14,929 nucleotides of DNA from contig CAMVJE010000033.1 of NCBI GenBank assembly GCA_947167745.1, positions 1-14,929 on the forward strand. Reading direction: 5' to 3'. The notes under the pieces are model-generated. The model ran no database searches and was not told the origin of the DNA. It saw nothing but the letters and a program-made list of their open reading frames with translations. Position numbers and translations under genes: made by a program. The first letter of the stretch is position 1, and every line of letters starts with the position of its first letter. The stretch comes from an uncultured Treponema sp. GTDB lineage: Bacteria; Spirochaetota; Spirochaetia; Treponematales; Treponemataceae. Shown here one piece after another: positions 1,987-14,817 of the stretch.

Positions 1987-3054
1987 ATGAAACAATTCTT
2001 CAAAAAAATTCTTTTCCTTTCACTTTTTGCTATTCAATTTTCATTTTTTTATTCATTACCAGCAGTCAGCAATTCAATTCCAGATTTTTCCGGCCAATAT
2101 GTTTATTACCACGACATGAGTTTTCAGCGTGAATCTTATATAGGTATTCTCTACTATGATGATTCGACCTATGCGATTCGATATTATGCTCCCGCGACAG
2201 GCAAGGGAAATTCGTTCAAACCAGAAAAAATTATTCACATTCTTTTTACGGTCGATCCAGAAAAAAAAGATCTTGAACTTACAGGCGAGCGAATTCTCAG
2301 CACAATTCAGCCAGATGACACAGATTTAATCAATTACATCCATGATTTTTTCTACGAAATGACAAAGCGACGTCAAAATGTTGGCGAACTTTCTCAACCC
2401 AAAAGCGATTATCAGGACTATGCCCAGTTTGGTGGCAGCGTAACTCTATATTTCAATCCGCTTATTCCTGTTTTCAATCTTGAGCGCATCGAGTCGGCCA
2501 GCAAAAAAATTCTCTTGCAAATCGTCACGGCAGGTCAGCTCATTTCTGGTGAAGATCAGAGTTTCGCCAAATTTGCTGGCATTGAAGAAAAATTCAATGA
2601 CAAGAATCACAAATTCAAAAAAAATAAAAAAGCAAAGCCAATAGAAATCAACTATAAAGCAAATGAAAATTCCACAGAACTAAAGGCAAAATTGGATACA
2701 TCTTGGAATGCAGCAGCCGAAAATTTCTACACTTTAGAAAATTTGGCTGTTTTCACTGTCAACGAAGTCACTTCCCCAATGGAAAATCAGATTCCTCTTT
2801 TAAAACGCCGCCTTCTTTTGGGGAACGAACTCGTCTATCCAAACTGGAAAAGCCAAAAAATTGAAACAAAAGCAAACGGAACCCTCTTCACGCAAGTTTC
2901 ATATCATTCCGAAACCGACAGCTACACTTATGACTTTAAATACCTGCATGAAATCGATTCAAAAACAGTCGGACTTTTTACACTCACAGTTTTTGCCGGT
3001 GCATACGAATCAAACAAAAAATATTTCAACGCGATTTTAGCAAGTTTTAATTAA
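1987..3054 (+). CDS. Secreted or periplasmic protein of unknown function
   Basis: I do not recognise this 355-residue protein. It starts with MKQFFKK followed by a Phe/Leu-rich hydrophobic stretch (about residues 8-23), a clear Sec signal peptide with possible cleavage near residues 23-30. No lipobox cysteine is present, so it is probably soluble periplasmic or surface material. The mature part is rich in Tyr, Phe, Asn and Lys, with a basic patch around residues 208-216 (KFKKNKKAKP). No catalytic motif or later membrane segment is evident. A Shine-Dalgarno AAAGGA (1976-1981) lies 5 bases before the ATG. The gap to proS is 45 bases, and no separate promoter is obvious, so co-transcription with proS is possible. 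It is probably a lineage-restricted spirochaete protein. Confidence 0.85.
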   Translation: MKQFFKKILFLSLFAIQFSFFYSLPAVSNSIPDFSGQYVYYHDMSFQRESYIGILYYDDSTYAIRYYAPATGKGNSFKPEKIIHILFTVDPEKKDLELTGERILSTIQPDDTDLINYIHDFFYEMTKRRQNVGELSQPKSDYQDYAQFGGSVTLYFNPLIPVFNLERIESASKKILLQIVTAGQLISGEDQSFAKFAGIEEKFNDKNHKFKKNKKAKPIEINYKANENSTELKAKLDTSWNAAAENFYTLENLAVFTVNEVTSPMENQIPLLKRRLLLGNELVYPNWKSQKIETKANGTLFTQVSYHSETDSYTYDFKYLHEIDSKTVGLFTLTVFAGAYESNKKYFNAILASFN

Positions 3055-6254: not shown

Positions 6255-7820
6255 TTATTTGATGAGGTTTTTCTCTTTAGCGAGTTTAACACCAGCATCG
6301 TTCCATTCTTTACCACCGATTTTGTCGAATTCATCAAGGAATTTCTGCCATTCGGTTGGGTTAAGAGTACGGTTACCAGTCATGAACTCAACAACACCCT
6401 GCTCGTAGAATCGTTTTACGTCAGCATTTGGCTGTGGCATTTTGTCCTGACCGATACAAGCTGTCCAAGCTTTAGCCTGCATTTCGCGGAGAGTCTTAAG
6501 AGCAGACATCTCTTTACCATTTTTAGCATACCAAGTTGGGTAGCGAGCAGCCAATTCGATATCGCCATTGTAGTAAACCATATTGCGGAGCTGTGTGAGT
6601 GGAATCATAGCAGCATCTGAATATGCTTTTGTTGGGTCTGGGATACCAGCTGTTGTTGGAACGCCATTCTTGTCGAATACGAAGTTGATTCCTTCCTGAC
6701 CCCATCCGAGGAGGTAGTAACCTTCGTCTGAAGACATCCATTCAAGGAGTTCAGCGATTTTGTCCATTTTGCCTTCTTTAGCAGCCTTTGTAGAAACAGC
6801 GTACATACGATAAGCCTGTGAGTATGTACCTGCAGAAGACTGTCCTTTTGGTCCTACTGGAGGCTCAACAACAATCCATTCACCATCTGGGAAGTTGTTG
6901 TCGAATGGTTTGTAGTTACCTTCTGCAGCATAAGCAGCATTCTGCTCACGCATGATACCAAAGCGTCCCTGTTTCCAAGCAGCGCGGAAGTCATCTTTCT
7001 TATAAGCCAACCAGTTTGGATCGATAACACCAGCGTCAACAATCTGTTTTACATAGACCATTGCGTCATAGTATTCTGGTTTATAGAGGTTAAGACCTGC
7101 TGTTTTAGCAGAAGCCAAGTTCCAAGTACCAGCAACGCCGAATGCACCAAAGAGTGGGTCGAAGCGTCGTCCGAGACCTTCGTTTGTAGCAGAAACTTCG
7201 AGGTATCCGCCGTATCCGTAGGTATCGTTTTTGCCGTTTCCATCAGGATCTTTCTCTGTGAATGCTTTCATTACATTGAAGAATTCTTCAGTTGTTTTTG
7301 GTACAGCAAGACCGAGTTTATCCAACCAGTCTTTGCGGATAAGAACGCCTTCGTTACGAACGATTGAACCCGGCTGAGCGAGTGCATATGAATGTCCGTC
7401 GATAGTTGTGAATGCGCGTGAATCTTTATCGTACAATTTTGCAGTGCGGTTAGGCATTTTGCTGTACATTGAATCAACTGGAGCAAGCAACTTTTTCTGA
7501 ACGAGAGTAGCATATACTTCATTTGAAACCATGAAGATGTCTGGCAATGTATTAGCTGCACCAGCGGCATTAACTTTTGTGTTCTGGTCAGCCTCTGATG
7601 ATGGCAAGTTTGTAAGCTTAAGGTTGATATTAAGCTTGTCTTTTACAATCTGATAACCAACCCAATCAGCTGGAATCGGACCTGCTTCAGATGCTGCAGC
7701 ACCATACCAAAGTTCGATGTCTACTGCACTACCCTTGCCTTTACCATTGCCACATGAAACCATAGCCAATGCTGCAAGAGCTGCTGCTGAAACAACAACA
7801 CCCTTCATTAACTTTTTCAT
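6255..7820 (-). CDS. Carbohydrate ABC importer, solute-binding lipoprotein
   Basis: The 521-residue protein is a family 1 extracellular solute-binding protein of the LipO/oligosaccharide type. Its N-terminus MKKLMKG, a hydrophobic core and MVSC end at Cys23, the predicted lipidation site, so it is held on the periplasmic face of a membrane. Mature features typical of the family include the ELWYG opening strand, NTLPDIFMVSNEVYATLV and the aromatic-rich C-terminal lobe. The length fits the large LipO-like binding proteins paired with LplB/LplC permeases, known or predicted to take up plant polysaccharide oligomers. The Shine-Dalgarno AAGGAGG (complement of 7827-7833) is 6 bases from the ATG, the strongest in the window. 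The gene comes last in the operon, after a 125-base gap with a stem-loop. Ligand specificity is inferred only from the hexuronate context. Confidence 0.93.
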   Translation of the reverse strand: MKKLMKGVVVSAAALAALAMVSCGNGKGKGSAVDIELWYGAAASEAGPIPADWVGYQIVKDKLNINLKLTNLPSSEADQNTKVNAAGAANTLPDIFMVSNEVYATLVQKKLLAPVDSMYSKMPNRTAKLYDKDSRAFTTIDGHSYALAQPGSIVRNEGVLIRKDWLDKLGLAVPKTTEEFFNVMKAFTEKDPDGNGKNDTYGYGGYLEVSATNEGLGRRFDPLFGAFGVAGTWNLASAKTAGLNLYKPEYYDAMVYVKQIVDAGVIDPNWLAYKKDDFRAAWKQGRFGIMREQNAAYAAEGNYKPFDNNFPDGEWIVVEPPVGPKGQSSAGTYSQAYRMYAVSTKAAKEGKMDKIAELLEWMSSDEGYYLLGWGQEGINFVFDKNGVPTTAGIPDPTKAYSDAAMIPLTQLRNMVYYNGDIELAARYPTWYAKNGKEMSALKTLREMQAKAWTACIGQDKMPQPNADVKRFYEQGVVEFMTGNRTLNPTEWQKFLDEFDKIGGKEWNDAGVKLAKEKNLIK

Positions 7821-7945: not shown

Positions 7946-8839
7946 TTAGCCCTTTACAGAACCAAGCATTGTACCCTTTGTGAAGTATTTCTGGATGAAC
8001 GGATAAGCGAGCATCATAGGAATAGCAGAAAGGAATACACAAGCAGCCTTAATTGAAGAAATTGAAGCTGCACCGAAGGCTGTACCAGTATCCAAAGTTT
8101 CACTCATTGAAGCACCCAACAAGATGTTTCGAGTAAGGATTGGAAGTGGCTGGAGATATGCTTCTGTTAAGTAAAGCAAGGCATGCATGAAGTCATTCCA
8201 GTAGCCAACTGCATAGTACAAACCGATTGTCATGATGATTGGTTTTGACAAAGGAAGAATGATAGAAACAAGAACATACCATTCTGCCGCACCGTCGATT
8301 CGAGCTGATTCTTTGAGAGATTCAGGAATACCCTCGAAGAAGCCGCGCATAATCAAACAGTTGTATGTACCAATTGCACCAGGCAAGAAGATTGAACACA
8401 AGTGGTTGGTAAGGTGAAGATTTGTTACAACCAAGAATGTTGGGATAACACCAATGTTGAACAAATATGGGATAAGTACGAAGTAGTTAAGGATTTTGCG
8501 ACCAGGCAAATCCTGTACTGACATACAATAAGCCATTGGAACAGTGAGTGACAATGATGTTACAACACCGAACAGCATGATTTTGATTGAGTTCCAGAAA
8601 GCAAGGGCAAAGCCGTTGTTTCCCAAAAGTGCTTTATAAGCAGCTCCATCCCATTTCCATGGCATGAGAATGAATTTATCAAATGTAGTTCCGATGTAGC
8701 CGTTTGGAGTTACAGATGATGAAATTGTACTAATGATAGGGATAGCAATGATTACACCGATGAAAACAAGGAAACTGTTTACACCAATATAAAATGCACG
8801 GTCACCTGATGTTAATTTTACTGTCTTTGGTTTTTCCAT
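7946..8839 (-). CDS. Carbohydrate ABC importer permease, LplC-like
   Basis: This 297-residue polytopic inner-membrane protein has a charged N-terminus, a first membrane segment near residues 16-36 and about five more. The ABC-ATPase docking (EAA) loop is clear: ESARIDGAAEWY from Glu177, followed by IILPLSKP. The C-terminal PFIQKYFTKGTMLGSVKG is typical of the LplC/CUT1 permease group. It forms the channel with the LplB-like subunit encoded 17 bases upstream. Its Shine-Dalgarno GAGGTG is 8 bases from the ATG. No ATPase gene is adjacent, so a shared MsmX/UgpC-type ATPase encoded elsewhere probably powers the importer. Confidence 0.94.
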   Translation of the reverse strand: MEKPKTVKLTSGDRAFYIGVNSFLVFIGVIIAIPIISTISSSVTPNGYIGTTFDKFILMPWKWDGAAYKALLGNNGFALAFWNSIKIMLFGVVTSLSLTVPMAYCMSVQDLPGRKILNYFVLIPYLFNIGVIPTFLVVTNLHLTNHLCSIFLPGAIGTYNCLIMRGFFEGIPESLKESARIDGAAEWYVLVSIILPLSKPIIMTIGLYYAVGYWNDFMHALLYLTEAYLQPLPILTRNILLGASMSETLDTGTAFGAASISSIKAACVFLSAIPMMLAYPFIQKYFTKGTMLGSVKG

Positions 8840-8856: not shown

Positions 8857-9798
8857 TTACAAGAGTGATGATTCGGTAATCTTCTTGACGACTTTATTAG
8901 AAATCATAACGAGAAGCATACCAATTACACCTTTGAAGATACCAACTGCAGTTGCAAGAGCAAACTCGAACTGTAGAAGACCTTGACGGTAAACCCATGT
9001 ATCAATGATATCTGCTACCGAATATACAGCAGGAGAATACAACATGAACATCTGGTTGAATCCAGCGTCAAGAACTGTACCAAGCTTAAGAAGAACAACC
9101 GTAACGATAACCGGCTTAATTGATGGGATAGTAATATACCATACTCGCTGAACTGCTGATGCACCCTCAACCATAGCAGCCTCGAACAATGACGGGTCAA
9201 TACCCATAAGAGCTGCAATAAAGATGATAGCTGCCCAACCCATCTCCTTCCATGCGTCTGAAAGAACAACTACAACCGGGAATACACCAGTATTTGTAAG
9301 GAAGTCTTTTGGTGTGCCGCCGGCTGCTTTAATGATATCGTTTACAAGGCCGTCACCAGGAGCCAGCAAAATAAGAAGGATACCATACATGATAACCCAA
9401 GAAAGGAAGTGTGGCAGATAAGCCAGCGTCTGAACCACTCGACGAAGCACATTATGAGTACATTCATACAATGCAACAGACAAAATGATTGAGAGCGGAA
9501 CCGAAATACAAAGCTTAGCCAAGCTATAAAGGATTGTATTCCTTAACAACTCTCCAAAGTAGAATGAATGGATGAATGTGCTGAAATTTTTAAATCCAAC
9601 CCAAACGCTTCCCCAAACACCATCTACAGGAGCAAAGTTTTTAAAAGCAATCTGACCATTAACGATTGGACCATACTTTAAGATAGCATAGTAAACAACC
9701 GGAATGATAAGAAGTGCATAGACCGAAAAATGTCTCTTTACGTTTTTCCAGAGATCCTTTTTCGGAGTGCTTAGAACATTTGTTTCTTGTGCGTTCAT
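8857..9798 (-). CDS. Carbohydrate ABC importer permease, LplB-like
   Basis: From the ATG at 9798 the protein has 313 residues and about six membrane segments, the first near 24-42 (YALLIIPVVYYAILKY). The EAA loop begins at Glu206 (EAAMVEGASAVQRVW) and continues to ITIPSIKP, the surface that contacts the ATPase. It heads a three-gene importer operon with the LplC-like permease and the lipoprotein. An in-frame TTG at 9810 would add four residues, but it falls within the Shine-Dalgarno sequence (TTGAGGTTAGGT) that serves the ATG, so the ATG is the better start. A strong -10 and an operator-like inverted repeat lie in the 93-base gap to the regulator gene. Confidence 0.94.
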   Translation of the reverse strand: MNAQETNVLSTPKKDLWKNVKRHFSVYALLIIPVVYYAILKYGPIVNGQIAFKNFAPVDGVWGSVWVGFKNFSTFIHSFYFGELLRNTILYSLAKLCISVPLSIILSVALYECTHNVLRRVVQTLAYLPHFLSWVIMYGILLILLAPGDGLVNDIIKAAGGTPKDFLTNTGVFPVVVVLSDAWKEMGWAAIIFIAALMGIDPSLFEAAMVEGASAVQRVWYITIPSIKPVIVTVVLLKLGTVLDAGFNQMFMLYSPAVYSVADIIDTWVYRQGLLQFEFALATAVGIFKGVIGMLLVMISNKVVKKITESSLL

Positions 9799-9819
9799 AC
9801 CTAACCTCAATATTTTATT

Positions 9820-9837: not shown

Positions 9838-9866
9838 ATTATACTTTAAAAATCCTTATGTCTTAT
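9838..9866 (-). promoter_or_regulatory. Importer operon promoter: perfect -10, poor -35
   Basis: On the minus strand a perfect TATAAT (9838-9843) lies about 40 bases upstream of the lplB-like ATG. The hexamer 17 bases further upstream is ATAAGA (9861-9866), only half matching TTGACA. A good -10 with a poor -35 is common in activator-dependent promoters and would suit control by the AraC-type regulator encoded next door. Read-through from the regulator gene is also possible because no terminator lies between them. Confidence 0.45.
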
Positions 9867-9891
9867 TGGACAAAACCGAACTCTCTTATAA

Positions 9892-12800
9892 TTATTTCGA
9901 ACGGATTCTGCCCGGTGGAACTCCATAAATCTTTTTAAAGACGCGACAGAAATATGCCTGGTCTTGAAAACCAGCATTTTCAGCAATTTCGTAAATTGTA
10001 TCGTTGGTTTCAAGAAGCATTTTTGTCGCTATATATATTCTATACCTATTTAGATATTCCCACAAACTTAATCCGATTTCTTTGTGAAAAATTCTAGTCA
10101 AATAATCTTCGCTGACATGAACCGTATCCGCAAGTTTCCATCGGACAATCTGGTGAGAAGCATTTCTATTTAAATATAATATAGCCTTTTTGACGAGAGC
10201 GCCAGTGTGAGGAGGTAAAATTTCATCTCCTGCCAAAATTCCCTTTATGCGCTCATTAAACTGCTCTGATTCAGCAGCTCCCCGGTTACATAAAATTATG
10301 CGGGGATGCGAGCAAAGCAATTCAATCTCTTCATCTGTAGATACAGTATCGGGCAGAACAACAATAGGTACAAGAACAGTTTTTGGATTTTGGCGAATTT
10401 TTTTAATACTGTCTTCATCAACTGACTCAAACACAATAATTGACGGTGTGATTTCTTCAAGAATTTTATCAAACTCGCCCATTGACAAAATGCTTACTGT
10501 ATTTGAATCAGTCGCCCATGTGCCGTAATGGGTATGTTTTGCATTTACAAAAAGAACAGGGGCCGTACGCTGAGTTTTAATCTTCTGCTCAAGCATGTCG
10601 ACAAAATTGTGACCTATCATGTTTCGACTGTAACAAATAAGCGGCGCCCTAAATATTGAATCTGAACGCCTGAGACCGTATACTTTAATCCATTCATCGA
10701 TAGGGGCAGAATCAGGCTCCCAGAAAAGTACAACTCCATTTATCCCGGATTCTTCAATATTCTCAGCAAAGAAATATTTTGTTTTTATATCAAGATGCTC
10801 TTTTGAAACATTCTCAGAGAAGGAATAAACGGCTGCATTTTCAGAAACAGAACCATCTGGGGGTAAACCTGCAAGATTTGGCCACGGTAAATTGACTTCT
10901 GCATAATTGGAAGACTTTACGATATCACCATATTGCAAAAGGATAATTTTTTCTGCGAGAAGAAGTTCGGGTTTTTGCCAGTCAAAACGATTGGAATAAA
11001 ATTCAATATGAACACCATCAAGCTTTTCGGAAATATAAGGCATCTTCTCGGCATAATCAAAGATAGTCTGTAACGCCCTCTTAAGACGCTCGGAATCACC
11101 AAAGAGGAGTGGAAATGGCCTGTCAAGATTTGCCGCAACACTACCCGGAAGAATCTGACGAATATCAAAGAGCTTTTTATCGATAGGAAGGTCATCGACT
11201 TGAGAACGAGTCAAATCTACAAGCGTTTCTGTCTTTTCAAGTTGAGCGTCAATCTGAGAACGGAGGAACAAAAGCTGCTCAGAAAGAATATCTTTATCAA
11301 TTATACCACGCTCAATATTTTCTTCCATTTGTTGAACCTTTGCCGAAAGATTCTTAAGCGGATCGCACAAATCGCTGCCGACATTTGCAAAAAATTCAGT
11401 TTTTGCAAATTCTGCCTGCTCAGCAATCTGTTTTGCTTCGTTTGTCTGTTCAAAAAGGAAGATGCTCTGAAGCGCAGAACTCACCGAAGAGCGCAAATCT
11501 TCATAGACTATTCCCTGACAGCCTGAATAATTGCAGATTATGTAACCATAGGAGCGGTCTTCAACAAATAAAGGCTGAACGATATAGGCTCCCCTGTCAA
11601 AATCAGAGGAATAACGATCAGGAACAAGATACTCTCTTGGGAAACGGACATCTTCCAGTCGGATTTCATCGGCTACATTATAACCGCCTATATAGGTTGA
11701 ATAACTTTCATCTTCATAAAGAATAATAGCCATCGTATTGATGCCAATTTTTGAAAGATGTTCCTTTAAAGAAAGAATAAGTTTGCTTCGATCAAAAACC
11801 AGAAGTAATGAGTTTTTTAGCGAAGTGACTATCTCATTTGTTTTGTTGATTTTATATTGTTTTTCGATGAGAACTCTTTCTTGAATGCGAGGAATAAGAA
11901 CCGCAATATGGCGGATAATTTTTTCGATATATTCCTGAGAAAGACAGGTTACGCTTCTGAAAACAGAGAGCGTATTGAATATTTTGAGTAAATCACCATC
12001 ATTATTGAAAAATGTTGTAACCCTCTGAGTAAATAAATCGTAAAATTTTGATTTATCATTTTCGAAAAGGGCTGTAAGCATTGGATCTAAATTTGCGGTC
12101 TCAGGATTAAGACGGAAAATCCGGCAAACCTCGCCGGCAAACTGCTCTTTTGAACGGATTTTTGCACGCAAATCAGACGCAGACCAAATTTTTGAATGCA
12201 CACAGCCACAACTTTCTCGAATAACCGGATAGGCAGGCAAATTTGAATCGGTTACACCAAGCATTCCTTTGAGAATGTTTGAGATTTTTTCGTAAGCTTC
12301 GATACCAAGCTCTGCATGTGGCATGTGAACTGTTGATAATGAAGGAATCGAGATTCGGCTTTCTTCAGTATCGTTAAATCCACCGACTAGCAAATCTTTG
12401 GGGATTCTAATCCCCTTCATTTTAAAATAATTAACAGCAGAAAAAGTCAGCAAGTCACTTGCGGAAATAAGAGCTTCAAAATCTTTCCCGGGAATAAGCC
12501 CCCGCTCTTCATAAAGTTGAATTGCACCCTGCTCACCATCATACCAGCTCAACGGGTCGCTTATAAGATTGTCGATTACTTCATAACCTGCTTCGCTTAG
12601 AGCATCTTTATAGCCTCTAAAACGATCCTCTGCAGAAGTATGTGTTTCCGGACCTCGGATAAATGCGATTTTCTTAACATCATGGACTTGAATGAAATGA
12701 CGAACAAGCTCTTTCATTCCAGTATAGGCATCAAATTCGGCACAAGGATGCCCAGAAACTTTTTGACCGATTGTAACATAAGGCAGATTTTCAAACTGTT

Positions 12801-13080
12801 TATGAAAATCCTCGACTTGAGCAACTGGAACAGACCCACTTATACTTGATGCCCAACTTATTACTCCATCTACATTTAATGGTGTTACAAGTTTATAAAT
12901 ATCATTACGGAGTTTTTCTGGAGCATCTCCTGCATACAATTTGCCGCCTGGAAAAACAAAAAAAGCTCCTTCATCCTGCATGGCACGATCAACAAGTTTA
13001 TGCCATAGTTTTAATGCTGAGCCAGCGTGAATTGTTGAGAGAATAAAACCAAGTCTTCTTCCAGAATGCGAAGTTTGCAT
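9892..13080 (-). CDS. Hybrid regulator: sugar-binding, GAF-like, degenerate kinase and receiver, AraC domain
   Basis: This 1062-residue protein has no signal peptide or membrane segment, so it acts in the cytoplasm. Residues 1 to about 293 are a LacI/periplasmic-binding-protein-like sensor without the LacI N-terminal helix-turn-helix, ending in a Cys pair (C291, C293). About 405-560 is GAF-like, running into a coiled coil. Near 560-680 is a histidine-kinase-like core: FFANVGSDLCDPLKNL aligns with the usual F-x-AN-x-SHE-x-RTPL, but Ser569 and Asp570 replace the phosphoacceptor His-Glu. The GDSERLKRAL segment (from 661) resembles the start of the N-box, whose Asn is replaced by Tyr676, and no ATP-binding G boxes are visible. 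About 855-960 is receiver-like with Glu885 at the phospho-Asp position. The last 100 residues are an AraC two-helix-turn-helix domain. It lies upstream of the importer genes and divergent to uxaB, so it probably senses a sugar and controls both. Domain limits are approximate. Confidence 0.9.
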   Translation of the reverse strand: MQTSHSGRRLGFILSTIHAGSALKLWHKLVDRAMQDEGAFFVFPGGKLYAGDAPEKLRNDIYKLVTPLNVDGVISWASSISGSVPVAQVEDFHKQFENLPYVTIGQKVSGHPCAEFDAYTGMKELVRHFIQVHDVKKIAFIRGPETHTSAEDRFRGYKDALSEAGYEVIDNLISDPLSWYDGEQGAIQLYEERGLIPGKDFEALISASDLLTFSAVNYFKMKGIRIPKDLLVGGFNDTEESRISIPSLSTVHMPHAELGIEAYEKISNILKGMLGVTDSNLPAYPVIRESCGCVHSKIWSASDLRAKIRSKEQFAGEVCRIFRLNPETANLDPMLTALFENDKSKFYDLFTQRVTTFFNNDGDLLKIFNTLSVFRSVTCLSQEYIEKIIRHIAVLIPRIQERVLIEKQYKINKTNEIVTSLKNSLLLVFDRSKLILSLKEHLSKIGINTMAIILYEDESYSTYIGGYNVADEIRLEDVRFPREYLVPDRYSSDFDRGAYIVQPLFVEDRSYGYIICNYSGCQGIVYEDLRSSVSSALQSIFLFEQTNEAKQIAEQAEFAKTEFFANVGSDLCDPLKNLSAKVQQMEENIERGIIDKDILSEQLLFLRSQIDAQLEKTETLVDLTRSQVDDLPIDKKLFDIRQILPGSVAANLDRPFPLLFGDSERLKRALQTIFDYAEKMPYISEKLDGVHIEFYSNRFDWQKPELLLAEKIILLQYGDIVKSSNYAEVNLPWPNLAGLPPDGSVSENAAVYSFSENVSKEHLDIKTKYFFAENIEESGINGVVLFWEPDSAPIDEWIKVYGLRRSDSIFRAPLICYSRNMIGHNFVDMLEQKIKTQRTAPVLFVNAKHTHYGTWATDSNTVSILSMGEFDKILEEITPSIIVFESVDEDSIKKIRQNPKTVLVPIVVLPDTVSTDEEIELLCSHPRIILCNRGAAESEQFNERIKGILAGDEILPPHTGALVKKAILYLNRNASHQIVRWKLADTVHVSEDYLTRIFHKEIGLSLWEYLNRYRIYIATKMLLETNDTIYEIAENAGFQDQAYFCRVFKKIYGVPPGRIRSK

Positions 13081-13254: not shown

Positions 13255-14817
13255 ATGGCTCTTAAGTCAATTAAAGATGTAGTAAAGACAGTAAAACGCC
13301 CAGAGAAAATCCTTCAGTTTGGTGAAGGCGGATTCTTGCGCGCATTCGTAGATTGGCAGATTGATATCGTCAACGAAAAAACAGACTTCAACGGCAGCAT
13401 CGTAATCGTTCAGCCACTTGAAAAAGGCATGATTGACGCGATGAACGCTCAGGACAACTTGTACACAACAGTTCTCCGCGGCATGAAAGACGGAAAACCA
13501 ACTGTTGAAACACGAGCAATCACTTCTGTAAGCCGCTCAATCAACCCATACACAAACTATGACGACTATATTGCATTGGCTTCAAGCCCGGATTTGCGCT
13601 TTCTCGTTTCTAACACAACTGAGGCTGGTATCCGCTTTGACACAGAAATCGACGGCGTTCCAGTAACTCTCGACCAGAAGCCCCAGAAAAACTACCCGGC
13701 AAAAGTCACCGCATTCCTGTACAAACGCTTCCAGGCATTCAAGGGCGACACTTCTAAGGGCTTGATTTTGATTCCTTGTGAATTGAGCGACCAGGCCGGT
13801 CTTAACCTTCGCATCAACATCCTCCGCTATGCAGAAATGTGGCAGCTGGGCCCGGACTTCATCAACTGGTTCGACGAAGCATGTGACGTTTGTTCATGTC
13901 TCGTTGACCGCATCGTTCCGGGATACTTCCCACTCCTCGCAAAAGAAGAAAACGGTAAAACTCAGGCAGAAAACCTCTGCGAAAAACTGGGCTACGAGGA
14001 CAAACTCCTCGACTCAGCTGAGCTCTTCCACTTCTGGGTTATCGAATCTAAAAAATCACACGAAGATGAACTTCCACTCGTTAAAGCAGGCCTTCAGGTT
14101 AAATGGGTTCAGAACATGGACTACTACCACACACGCAAGGTTCGCATTTTGAACGGTGCACACACATCTTCAGTTCTGGCTGCATTCCTCGCAGGTTCGA
14201 ACTATGTTCAGGATATCGTATGTTCTGAAAAAGTCGGATCAGGATTCAACACACCGAATGCTGATGCTCAGAAATTCATGCACGACATCATCTTCAACGA
14301 AATCGTTCCTTCAATCGACGGAGACCAGGAAGACCTGAAAAAATACGCACAGGATGTATGGACTCGCTTCCAGAACCCCTTCAACCCGCACCGCCTGATT
14401 GAGATTTCTTTGAACTCAGTCGCAAAATACTGGACACGCTGTCTGCCTTCAGTTCTCCAGTCAGTAAAGAAGAACGGCTCTGTTCCCAAGCTGCTGGGCT
14501 TCTCAATTGCAGCCCTCATCGCTTTCTACAACGGAACCGAAATCAAAGAAAACGCAAAAGGTCAGAAATGTCTCGTTTCTAAGCGGGAAGACGGCGAATA
14601 CGAGAACCTGGACACACTTCCTGTTCTGGAATTCTTTGCCGCTCTCAACAAAGAGACCAAAGATGCAAAAGTTATCGCAAACAAAGTCTTGAGCAATGTT
14701 GACTTCTGGAAGGAAGATTTGACAAAGGTTGCAGGACTTGAAGCAGCAGTTGCAGGTCACCTGGCTGATATTCAGTCTAAAGGTATGAAGAAAGCACTGG
14801 CTGAGATTGTGAAATAA
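13255..14817 (+). CDS. uxaB: Tagaturonate reductase (altronate oxidoreductase)
   Basis: This 520-residue cytoplasmic NAD-dependent dehydrogenase belongs to the mannitol dehydrogenase family. It reduces D-tagaturonate to D-altronate in galacturonate breakdown. The N-terminal nucleotide-binding fold opens with ILQFGEGGFLRAF (from about residue 19). The family's catalytic K-x4-N-x2-H signature is present in KVRILNGAHT as Lys295, Asn300 and His303. The PNPHRL-like segment FNPHRLIEISLNS follows in the C-terminal domain. Length and overall sequence fit UxaB better than fructuronate reductase (UxaB's relative UxuB) or mannitol dehydrogenase, but I judge that by eye. It has a good promoter and Shine-Dalgarno, stands alone on its strand, and is divergent from the hybrid regulator. 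UxaC and UxaA are absent from the window. Confidence 0.93.
   Translation: MALKSIKDVVKTVKRPEKILQFGEGGFLRAFVDWQIDIVNEKTDFNGSIVIVQPLEKGMIDAMNAQDNLYTTVLRGMKDGKPTVETRAITSVSRSINPYTNYDDYIALASSPDLRFLVSNTTEAGIRFDTEIDGVPVTLDQKPQKNYPAKVTAFLYKRFQAFKGDTSKGLILIPCELSDQAGLNLRINILRYAEMWQLGPDFINWFDEACDVCSCLVDRIVPGYFPLLAKEENGKTQAENLCEKLGYEDKLLDSAELFHFWVIESKKSHEDELPLVKAGLQVKWVQNMDYYHTRKVRILNGAHTSSVLAAFLAGSNYVQDIVCSEKVGSGFNTPNADAQKFMHDIIFNEIVPSIDGDQEDLKKYAQDVWTRFQNPFNPHRLIEISLNSVAKYWTRCLPSVLQSVKKNGSVPKLLGFSIAALIAFYNGTEIKENAKGQKCLVSKREDGEYENLDTLPVLEFFAALNKETKDAKVIANKVLSNVDFWKEDLTKVAGLEAAVAGHLADIQSKGMKKALAEIVK

Follow-up and report, generated by a model that had tools for sequence, protein, structure and literature searches.

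A one-chain regulator of Treponema with LacI-type sensor, AraC domain and a kinase-receiver stack that appears to have lost its phosphorelay residues

The DNA analysed here, referred to as the window, is a stretch of 14,929 nucleotides of contig CAMVJE010000033.1 from an uncultured Treponema sp. (assembly GCA_947167745.1). On its minus strand lies a gene with an ATG start (9892..13080) for a regulator of 1062 residues, which carries in one chain a sensor, a kinase core, a receiver fold and an AraC-type DNA-binding domain, a make-up like that of the hybrid two-component systems (HTCS). The domain order, the folds, the loss of relay residues, the homology to intact hybrids, the purifying selection, the gene neighbourhood and a conserved site were computed in this study. 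We consider it likely that the protein is a cytoplasmic one-component regulator of uronate genes that is driven allosterically by its ligand and descends from a one-chain hybrid two-component system.

The kinase core is recognizable by its fold. A profile, the AlphaFold2 model and structure comparison identify a HisKA-like two-helix hairpin (DHp, residues 541-630; 11191..11460, minus strand, as for all parts of the gene given below), and structure comparison of the model together with the alignment places a reduced Bergerat-like ATPase fold (CA) at residues 636-740 (10861..11175). DivL and RetS are among the structure matches. At the level of sequence domains, Pfam gave the window protein no match to HisKA, HATPase_c or Response_reg with E ≤ 1. 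When 40 family members were scanned, HisKA was found in 9; 26 Pfam families were matched, and neither HATPase_c nor Response_reg was among the 25 shown, so that at most one of the 40 members could match one of them. In the family alignment, Ser569 (11374..11376) occupies the position of the phosphoacceptor His and Tyr676 (11053..11055) that of the N-box Asn. No His is present in residues 541-630 and the only one in residues 541-740 is His691, so that no intact phosphoacceptor was found elsewhere in the core. His691 itself replaces the second Gly of the G1 box, whose Asp is replaced by Leu687. Gaps stand at the F-box Phe and at the first two Gly of G2, whose third Gly is replaced by Glu705. An earlier note on this DNA, made by reading the sequence, saw no G boxes; this holds for the G1 Asp, the second G1 Gly and G2, and fails for the first G1 Gly, which is retained as Gly689 and is Gly in 182 of the 193 family rows described below. 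The segment that bears the CA motifs is also shortened, its median length being 36 residues in the family and 67 in intact relatives.

Two receiver segments follow. The second (REC2, residues 841-951; 10228..10560) is a pseudo-receiver whose fold is recovered by the AlphaFold2 model and structure comparison, with weak support from the sequence profile: the best match of the A4 receiver profile was no better than E 0.035, although 21 of its 25 rows were receivers or response regulators. Glu885 (10426..10428) is aligned with the phospho-Asp. In the rest of the pocket, the acidic pair is a gap and Asn846, the Thr/Ser is Pro910 and the Lys is Arg933. The earlier note suggested that Glu885 could mimic the phosphorylated state. 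This idea fares poorly, as column 885 is variable (Glu in 139 of 193 family rows, Asp in 15, Asn in 9, and Gly, Lys, Tyr and others in the remainder) and the other pocket residues are gone. The first receiver is present as a remnant (REC1, residues 751-837; 10570..10830), identified by AlphaFold2, hhalign and alignment to intact hybrids; its part 784-837 was set against a receiver by hhalign (probability 97 and E 6.8e-11 for the whole alignment). It has shrunk to a median of 94 residues in the family, compared with 124 in intact relatives, and it keeps a Trp (Trp787; Trp in 183 of 193 family rows and 121 of 125 intact relatives). Even in the intact hybrids the first receiver (about 835-935 in protein P0145) is degenerate: the aligned rows have no acidic pair there and retain a Trp-Asp motif. 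One pseudo-receiver may therefore predate the loss of the relay. As both a kinase and a receiver fold were found, the possibility that the region contains neither was rejected.

The loss extends well beyond the window. Our family alignment contains 193 rows, 187 of them distinct: the window protein, 80 genome loci kept of 139 related stretches, and 112 database proteins longer than 900 residues, taken from 120 listed of 187 found after the window's own protein and seven below 900 residues were left out. The genome loci come from Treponema, Sphaerochaeta and other spirochaete records, among them T. ruminis (L008), whose protein is 72% identical. Seven residues were scored, namely the His, the N-box Asn, the G1 Asp, two G2 Gly, the receiver Asp and the receiver Lys. 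None is kept in 157 of the 193 rows, one in 32 and two in 4. Column 569 is Ser in 118 rows and otherwise Asn, Glu, Ala, Asp, Gly, Val, His, Lys, Ile or Thr; it is His in three rows (L038, L042, L045), and no row among the 193 combines His with the N-box Asn or with the receiver Asp. By comparison, all seven residues are kept in 125 of 125 intact relatives, which were gathered by similarity to two intact proteins and are not a random sample. The assignment of Ser569, Tyr676 and Glu885 to the His, N-box Asn and phospho-Asp positions, originally made by eye, is thus borne out, since the residues aligned with them are conserved throughout the intact set. Local decay in one contig was rejected as an explanation, as the loss is common to the 80 genome loci and the 112 database proteins. 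In the window protein, as aligned, the His, N-box Asn, G1 Asp, G2 Gly, receiver Asp and Lys are all replaced or gapped, and phosphoryl chemistry is excluded as far as sequence can exclude it.

Intact proteins of the same architecture exist and are numerous, contrary to the uniqueness that the earlier note had implied. With L085, an intact spirochaete LacI-type kinase, as query, nine LacI-HisKA-HATPase-receiver-AraC proteins of 1179-1222 residues were found among 120 listed (P0140, P0141, P0143-P0145, P0151-P0153 and P0168). With P0145 as query, all five Pfam domains were read by eye in all of the best 120 of 3763 proteins; six matches among those listed bear organism names, which are Anaerolineae, Anaerolineales or Thermoflexales and which we take to be Chloroflexota. 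The window protein matches the domain order of these hybrids in the alignment, including the degenerate first receiver. The P0145-type hybrids likewise have an SCGC-ended LacI sensor, a linker, HisKA, ATPase, a Trp-bearing degenerate first receiver, a second receiver and AraC, but they keep the relay residues, of which hardly any remain in the spirochaete family. The latter is also shorter by about 140 residues, the window protein having 1062 and P0145 1203. A family profile also aligns with nine spirochaete LacI kinases (hhalign E 2.6e-86); the aligned 730 columns cover the sensor and DHp and extend into the ATPase.

A tree of the LacI and linker regions (47 rows, 550 columns, midpoint root, with the long branches L086, L087, L094 and L098 left out) places the dead family in one clade with support 100/100 on a long stem (1.1). 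In this careful tree the intact AraC hybrids lie near the dead family but are not resolved as its sister, and the hybrids form one group in 7% of bootstrap trees; in a quick tree, the dead clade joins the intact AraC hybrids (Shimodaira-Hasegawa-like approximate likelihood ratio 90). Descent from the spirochaete LacI kinases that lack AraC (L081-L088) was rejected: they are homologous, but the quick tree puts the dead clade with the intact AraC hybrids, the careful tree leaving the sister open. The single clade suggests that the change from a working one-chain hybrid kinase to a one-component regulator most likely happened once. As the residues are retained in the nine LacI kinases and in the 125 hybrids, a single loss in the stem is a simple account. 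Transfer among spirochaete lineages may have followed. A phylum-wide family was rejected: in a sample of 149 genomes from the phylum of a Sphaerochaeta record (G006), a LacI-type match at E 1e-12 was present in 28, ordinary short LacI regulators included, and a frame of the dead-family kind (1071-1115 aa, E < 1e-70) in only 3, a sparse distribution.

The dead modules appear to be maintained. Among 11 orthologues (55 pairs), the median ratio of nonsynonymous to synonymous substitution rates (dN/dS) was 0.016 for AraC, 0.047 for DHp, 0.075 for REC2, 0.092 for CA, 0.102 for LacI, 0.155 for the linker/GAF and 0.164 for the REC1 remnant. Because dS had reached saturation, with means of 1.5-1.9 and defined values in 32-46 of the 55 pairs, only the ranking of these ratios is informative. 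Mean identities were 97, 84, 79, 80, 73, 64 and 60% in the same order. DHp, CA and REC2 thus appear to be under purifying selection that is tighter than that on the LacI sensor, and their better conservation suggests that the dead modules still have a job.

The two ends of the chain are assigned more directly. The LacI-type sugar-binding sensor (residues 1-290; 12211..13080) matches Peripla_BP_3 in Pfam (8.7e-17), a LacI ancestor in the PDB (9nt3, 3.5e-19) and LacI in Foldseek (8.0e-15). The LacI/periplasmic-binding fold is present, and a Foldseek search with the full regulator model returned LacI-type structures throughout its best 50 rows. Just after the sensor lies an SCGC motif (residues 290-293; 12202..12213), found by string match in 188 of the 193 family rows and 124 of the 125 intact relatives; its role could be structural or related to metal or redox chemistry. 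The next part, a helical linker with a GAF-like domain (residues 296-540; 11461..12195), was drawn from AlphaFold2 secondary structure, which is compatible with a GAF fold at about 430-520. The earlier description of this region as GAF-like stands to that extent; a profile of the linker region matched nine PDB rows with no GAF structure among them, the best being a designed repeat protein. The AraC-type domain (residues 955-1062; 9895..10218) is confirmed by Pfam HTH_18 (7.9e-21; 74.6 bits against a cut-off of 33.6). Pfam and NCBIfam, run on residues 293-965, found nothing between the LacI-type and AraC domains. No membrane stretch was detected in the regulator (on the Kyte-Doolittle scale none of its 19-residue windows exceeds 1.6, compared with 46 that do in a permease used as control). 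PDB entry 4fe4 was matched in its AraC part; we take it to be E. coli XylR, which joins a LacI-like sensor to an AraC domain in a single chain and is not known to carry kinase or receiver modules between the two.

The regulator sits between a divergent gene for tagaturonate reductase UxaB (13255..14817, plus strand; NCBIfam PRK03643, 561 bits against a cut-off of 359) and an ATP-binding cassette (ABC) transporter encoded on the minus strand. The latter consists of permease 1 (permA, the likely target; 8857..9810) and permease 2 (7946..8839), both assigned by Pfam and by homologues in the loci, and a solute-binding protein (6255..7820; Pfam SBP_bac_8, 7.6e-11). A PfkB gene resembling 2-keto-3-deoxygluconate (KDG) kinase lies nearby and scores below the NCBIfam cut-offs. 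Among the 80 loci (> 30% query coverage), some of which are cut short, permease A was found in 59, permease B in 57, the binding protein in 52 and UxaB in 42. A 355-residue open reading frame of the window (1987-3054, plus strand) has no Pfam or NCBIfam match, and a homologue of it is located near a KDG-kinase-like gene in 10 of the 80 loci.

The gap between the regulator and the permease gene contains a conserved 16-mer, TCGGTTTTGTCCAATA (9864..9879, minus strand), as a candidate operator. The gap before the permease carries TTCGGTTTTGTCCAATAA, which is recognizable in 21 aligned gaps and in a set of 23 rows picked for matching; the candidate site can be recognized in most of the rumen Treponema relatives examined. 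A search of the window at ≤ 2 mismatches gives one copy of the 16-mer, with 0.01 expected. With at most one mismatch, 12 genomes contain 17 matches, compared with 2 for a reversed control. Of the 17, 11 lie before permA, in 11 genomes, and match by construction, as the pattern was derived from permA gaps; 2 before a short-chain dehydrogenase/reductase (SDR) gene and 1 between uxaB and the regulator are independent, and 3 lie elsewhere. In T. ruminis the exact 16-mer is found only twice, before permA and before the SDR gene. The SDR is a gluconate 5-dehydrogenase by NCBIfam (495 bits against a cut-off of 369), with the KduD models below cut-off. A site beside a fumarase gene (L122) may be due to chance. 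The operator-like site, the REC1 remnant and the intact parent architecture had been overlooked in the earlier note.

Combining these data, we propose how the protein could work. A uronate or pectin-derived sugar would bind the LacI-type domain, and closure of the sensor would be transmitted through the linker to the coiled-coil/DHp helical bundle of a presumed dimer. The bundle would move the dead CA and receiver blocks, and the two AraC domains would thereby be freed, or positioned, on the site that precedes the ABC transporter operon. The signal probably passes by shape change alone, and the regulator is probably an activator, a choice of activation over repression that we infer. In Bacteroides HTCS, the receiver is reported to repress the DNA-binding domain through an interface, and mutations relieve this repression without phosphate, according to the sections available to us (PMC11253607); such an interface makes a lever plausible. 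On balance we favor a single conversion in a Treponema/Sphaerochaeta ancestor, in which the whole relay (kinase, ATPase and two receivers) turned into a mechanical lever from sugar binding to the AraC domain, with the dead stack mostly under tighter selection than the sensor. The earlier proposal that a former relay has become a non-phosphorylating link from sensor to DNA-binding domain thus remains the best reading, given the intact homologues of the same order, the residue loss in one clade and the purifying selection.

Several points weigh against it, the saturation of dS and the derivation of the site pattern among them. The allosteric nature of the link from sensor to DNA-binding domain is itself inferred. 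The REC1 remnant and the linker evolve faster than the sensor. The SDR sites come from three genomes, which are close relatives, two of them with one mismatch, and at ≤ 2 mismatches four genomes gave 40 matches against 19 for the reversed control, with T. ruminis alone giving 5 against 5. In L009, a 69% identical relative that has the transporter, nothing matches the 15-base core at up to 3 mismatches, and the same is true of L019, which lacks the permease. Most distant loci likewise have no site within this limit, with traces in L063, L064, L067, L068, L070 and L078. The transporter is more than 5 kb away in a few loci and many termite-gut members are seen without any of these neighbors, suggesting that ligand and targets may differ there.

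Other explanations were considered. The dead modules could be a passive dimerization scaffold or spacer, with the ligand acting elsewhere, for example through direct contact between the sensor and the DNA-binding domain. The shrinkage of REC1 is in line with this, and so is L100, a shorter LacI-AraC protein encoded in a family member's genome in which Pfam detects no kinase, so that sensing may not need the stack. We regard a spacer as unlikely, since the sensor is less conserved than DHp, CA and REC2, and since the receiver fold is preserved beyond a spacer's needs. A pseudokinase that acts in trans, modulating another intact kinase or receiver as DivL does with DivK and CckA, would agree with the fold matches to DivL and RetS and with the intact LacI-type kinases in some genomes of the phylum sample. 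It seems improbable, however, for a protein that already combines a sensor and a DNA-binding domain of its own in a single chain. No such kinase gene was found among nine window proteins scanned, and DivL is described as retaining its N, G1, F and G2 boxes (PMC4211667, in part), nearly all of which the regulator has lost. A thinner point is that in ten family-bearing genomes the other LacI-type matches are 14 shorter frames (333-829 aa), of which two, both in one genome, were classified (L092 as a chemoreceptor, L100 as AraC). Still more remote is a new phosphosite at Ser569 or another residue, for instance for a Ser/Thr kinase. Ser predominates at this column and Ser/Thr phosphorylation of the pseudo-receiver regulator GlnR is cited in the part of a review available to us (PMC12632262), but the range of other residues in column 569 shows that Ser is not conserved family-wide.

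LacI domains of the regulator's type, with SCGC at their end, are also found in other spirochaete proteins. We took 20 stretches with long frames and scanned 20 proteins with Pfam. An intact HisKA-HATPase-receiver set accompanies the LacI-type sensor in L081, L082, L083 (with Hpt), L084, L085 (with SpoIIE), L086, L087 and L088. The sensor is joined to an ATPase in L096 and L097 (with a weak HisKA), to SpoIIE in L089, L094 and L099, and to LuxR in L095; L100, mentioned above, has 723 residues. The occurrence of Hpt, SpoIIE phosphatase, LuxR, ATPase and short AraC outputs on one kind of sensor (L083, L085, L089, L094-L097, L099, L100) points to a modular sugar-sensor family. In five further proteins the sensor is fused to a chemoreceptor signaling domain (MCPsignal; L090:810-3269, L091:940-3369, L092:768-3218, L093:284-2719 and L098:440-2737). 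These are candidate chemoreceptors that may read sugars through a LacI fold.

Comparison with known systems helps to place the regulator. Like Bacteroides HTCS, it has kinase, receiver and DNA-binding domain in one chain over sugar genes; HTCS, however, have a membrane sensor kinase and working phosphotransfer, whereas the regulator has a LacI-type sensor without a membrane stretch and a dead relay. Caulobacter DivL similarly has a kinase fold with the His replaced, but it has Tyr at the site and is described as acting on other proteins (PMC4211667, in part), while the regulator has its output in its own chain. The evolved ChrS pseudokinase is also described, in the part of the source available, as working through another kinase (PMC9491836). 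As in the bacterial pseudo-receivers reviewed in 2025 (PMC12632262), the Asp, acidic pair, Thr/Ser and Lys are gone from REC2; the cases named in the sections available to us are separate regulators or partly live proteins (ShkA, CikA, PleD), whereas this one is in a chain with a sensor and a dead kinase. According to the sections of this review available to us, 0.9% of HisKA domains lack the His and 2.0% of receivers lack the Asp, and switching mechanisms of pseudo-receivers 'remain a mystery', with covalent modification, multimer state and ligand binding also listed as direct mechanisms; no chain that has lost both His and Asp is described in those sections. A description of this dead-relay family was not found in the titles and abstracts of one literature collection.

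A ligand sensor, a dead kinase, a dead receiver and a DNA-binding domain are combined in the regulator, a single and apparently soluble protein for which a likely pathway and a candidate DNA site can be named and a live related family can serve as comparison. One purified protein could thus be used to test whether signals can pass through kinase and receiver conformations without chemistry.

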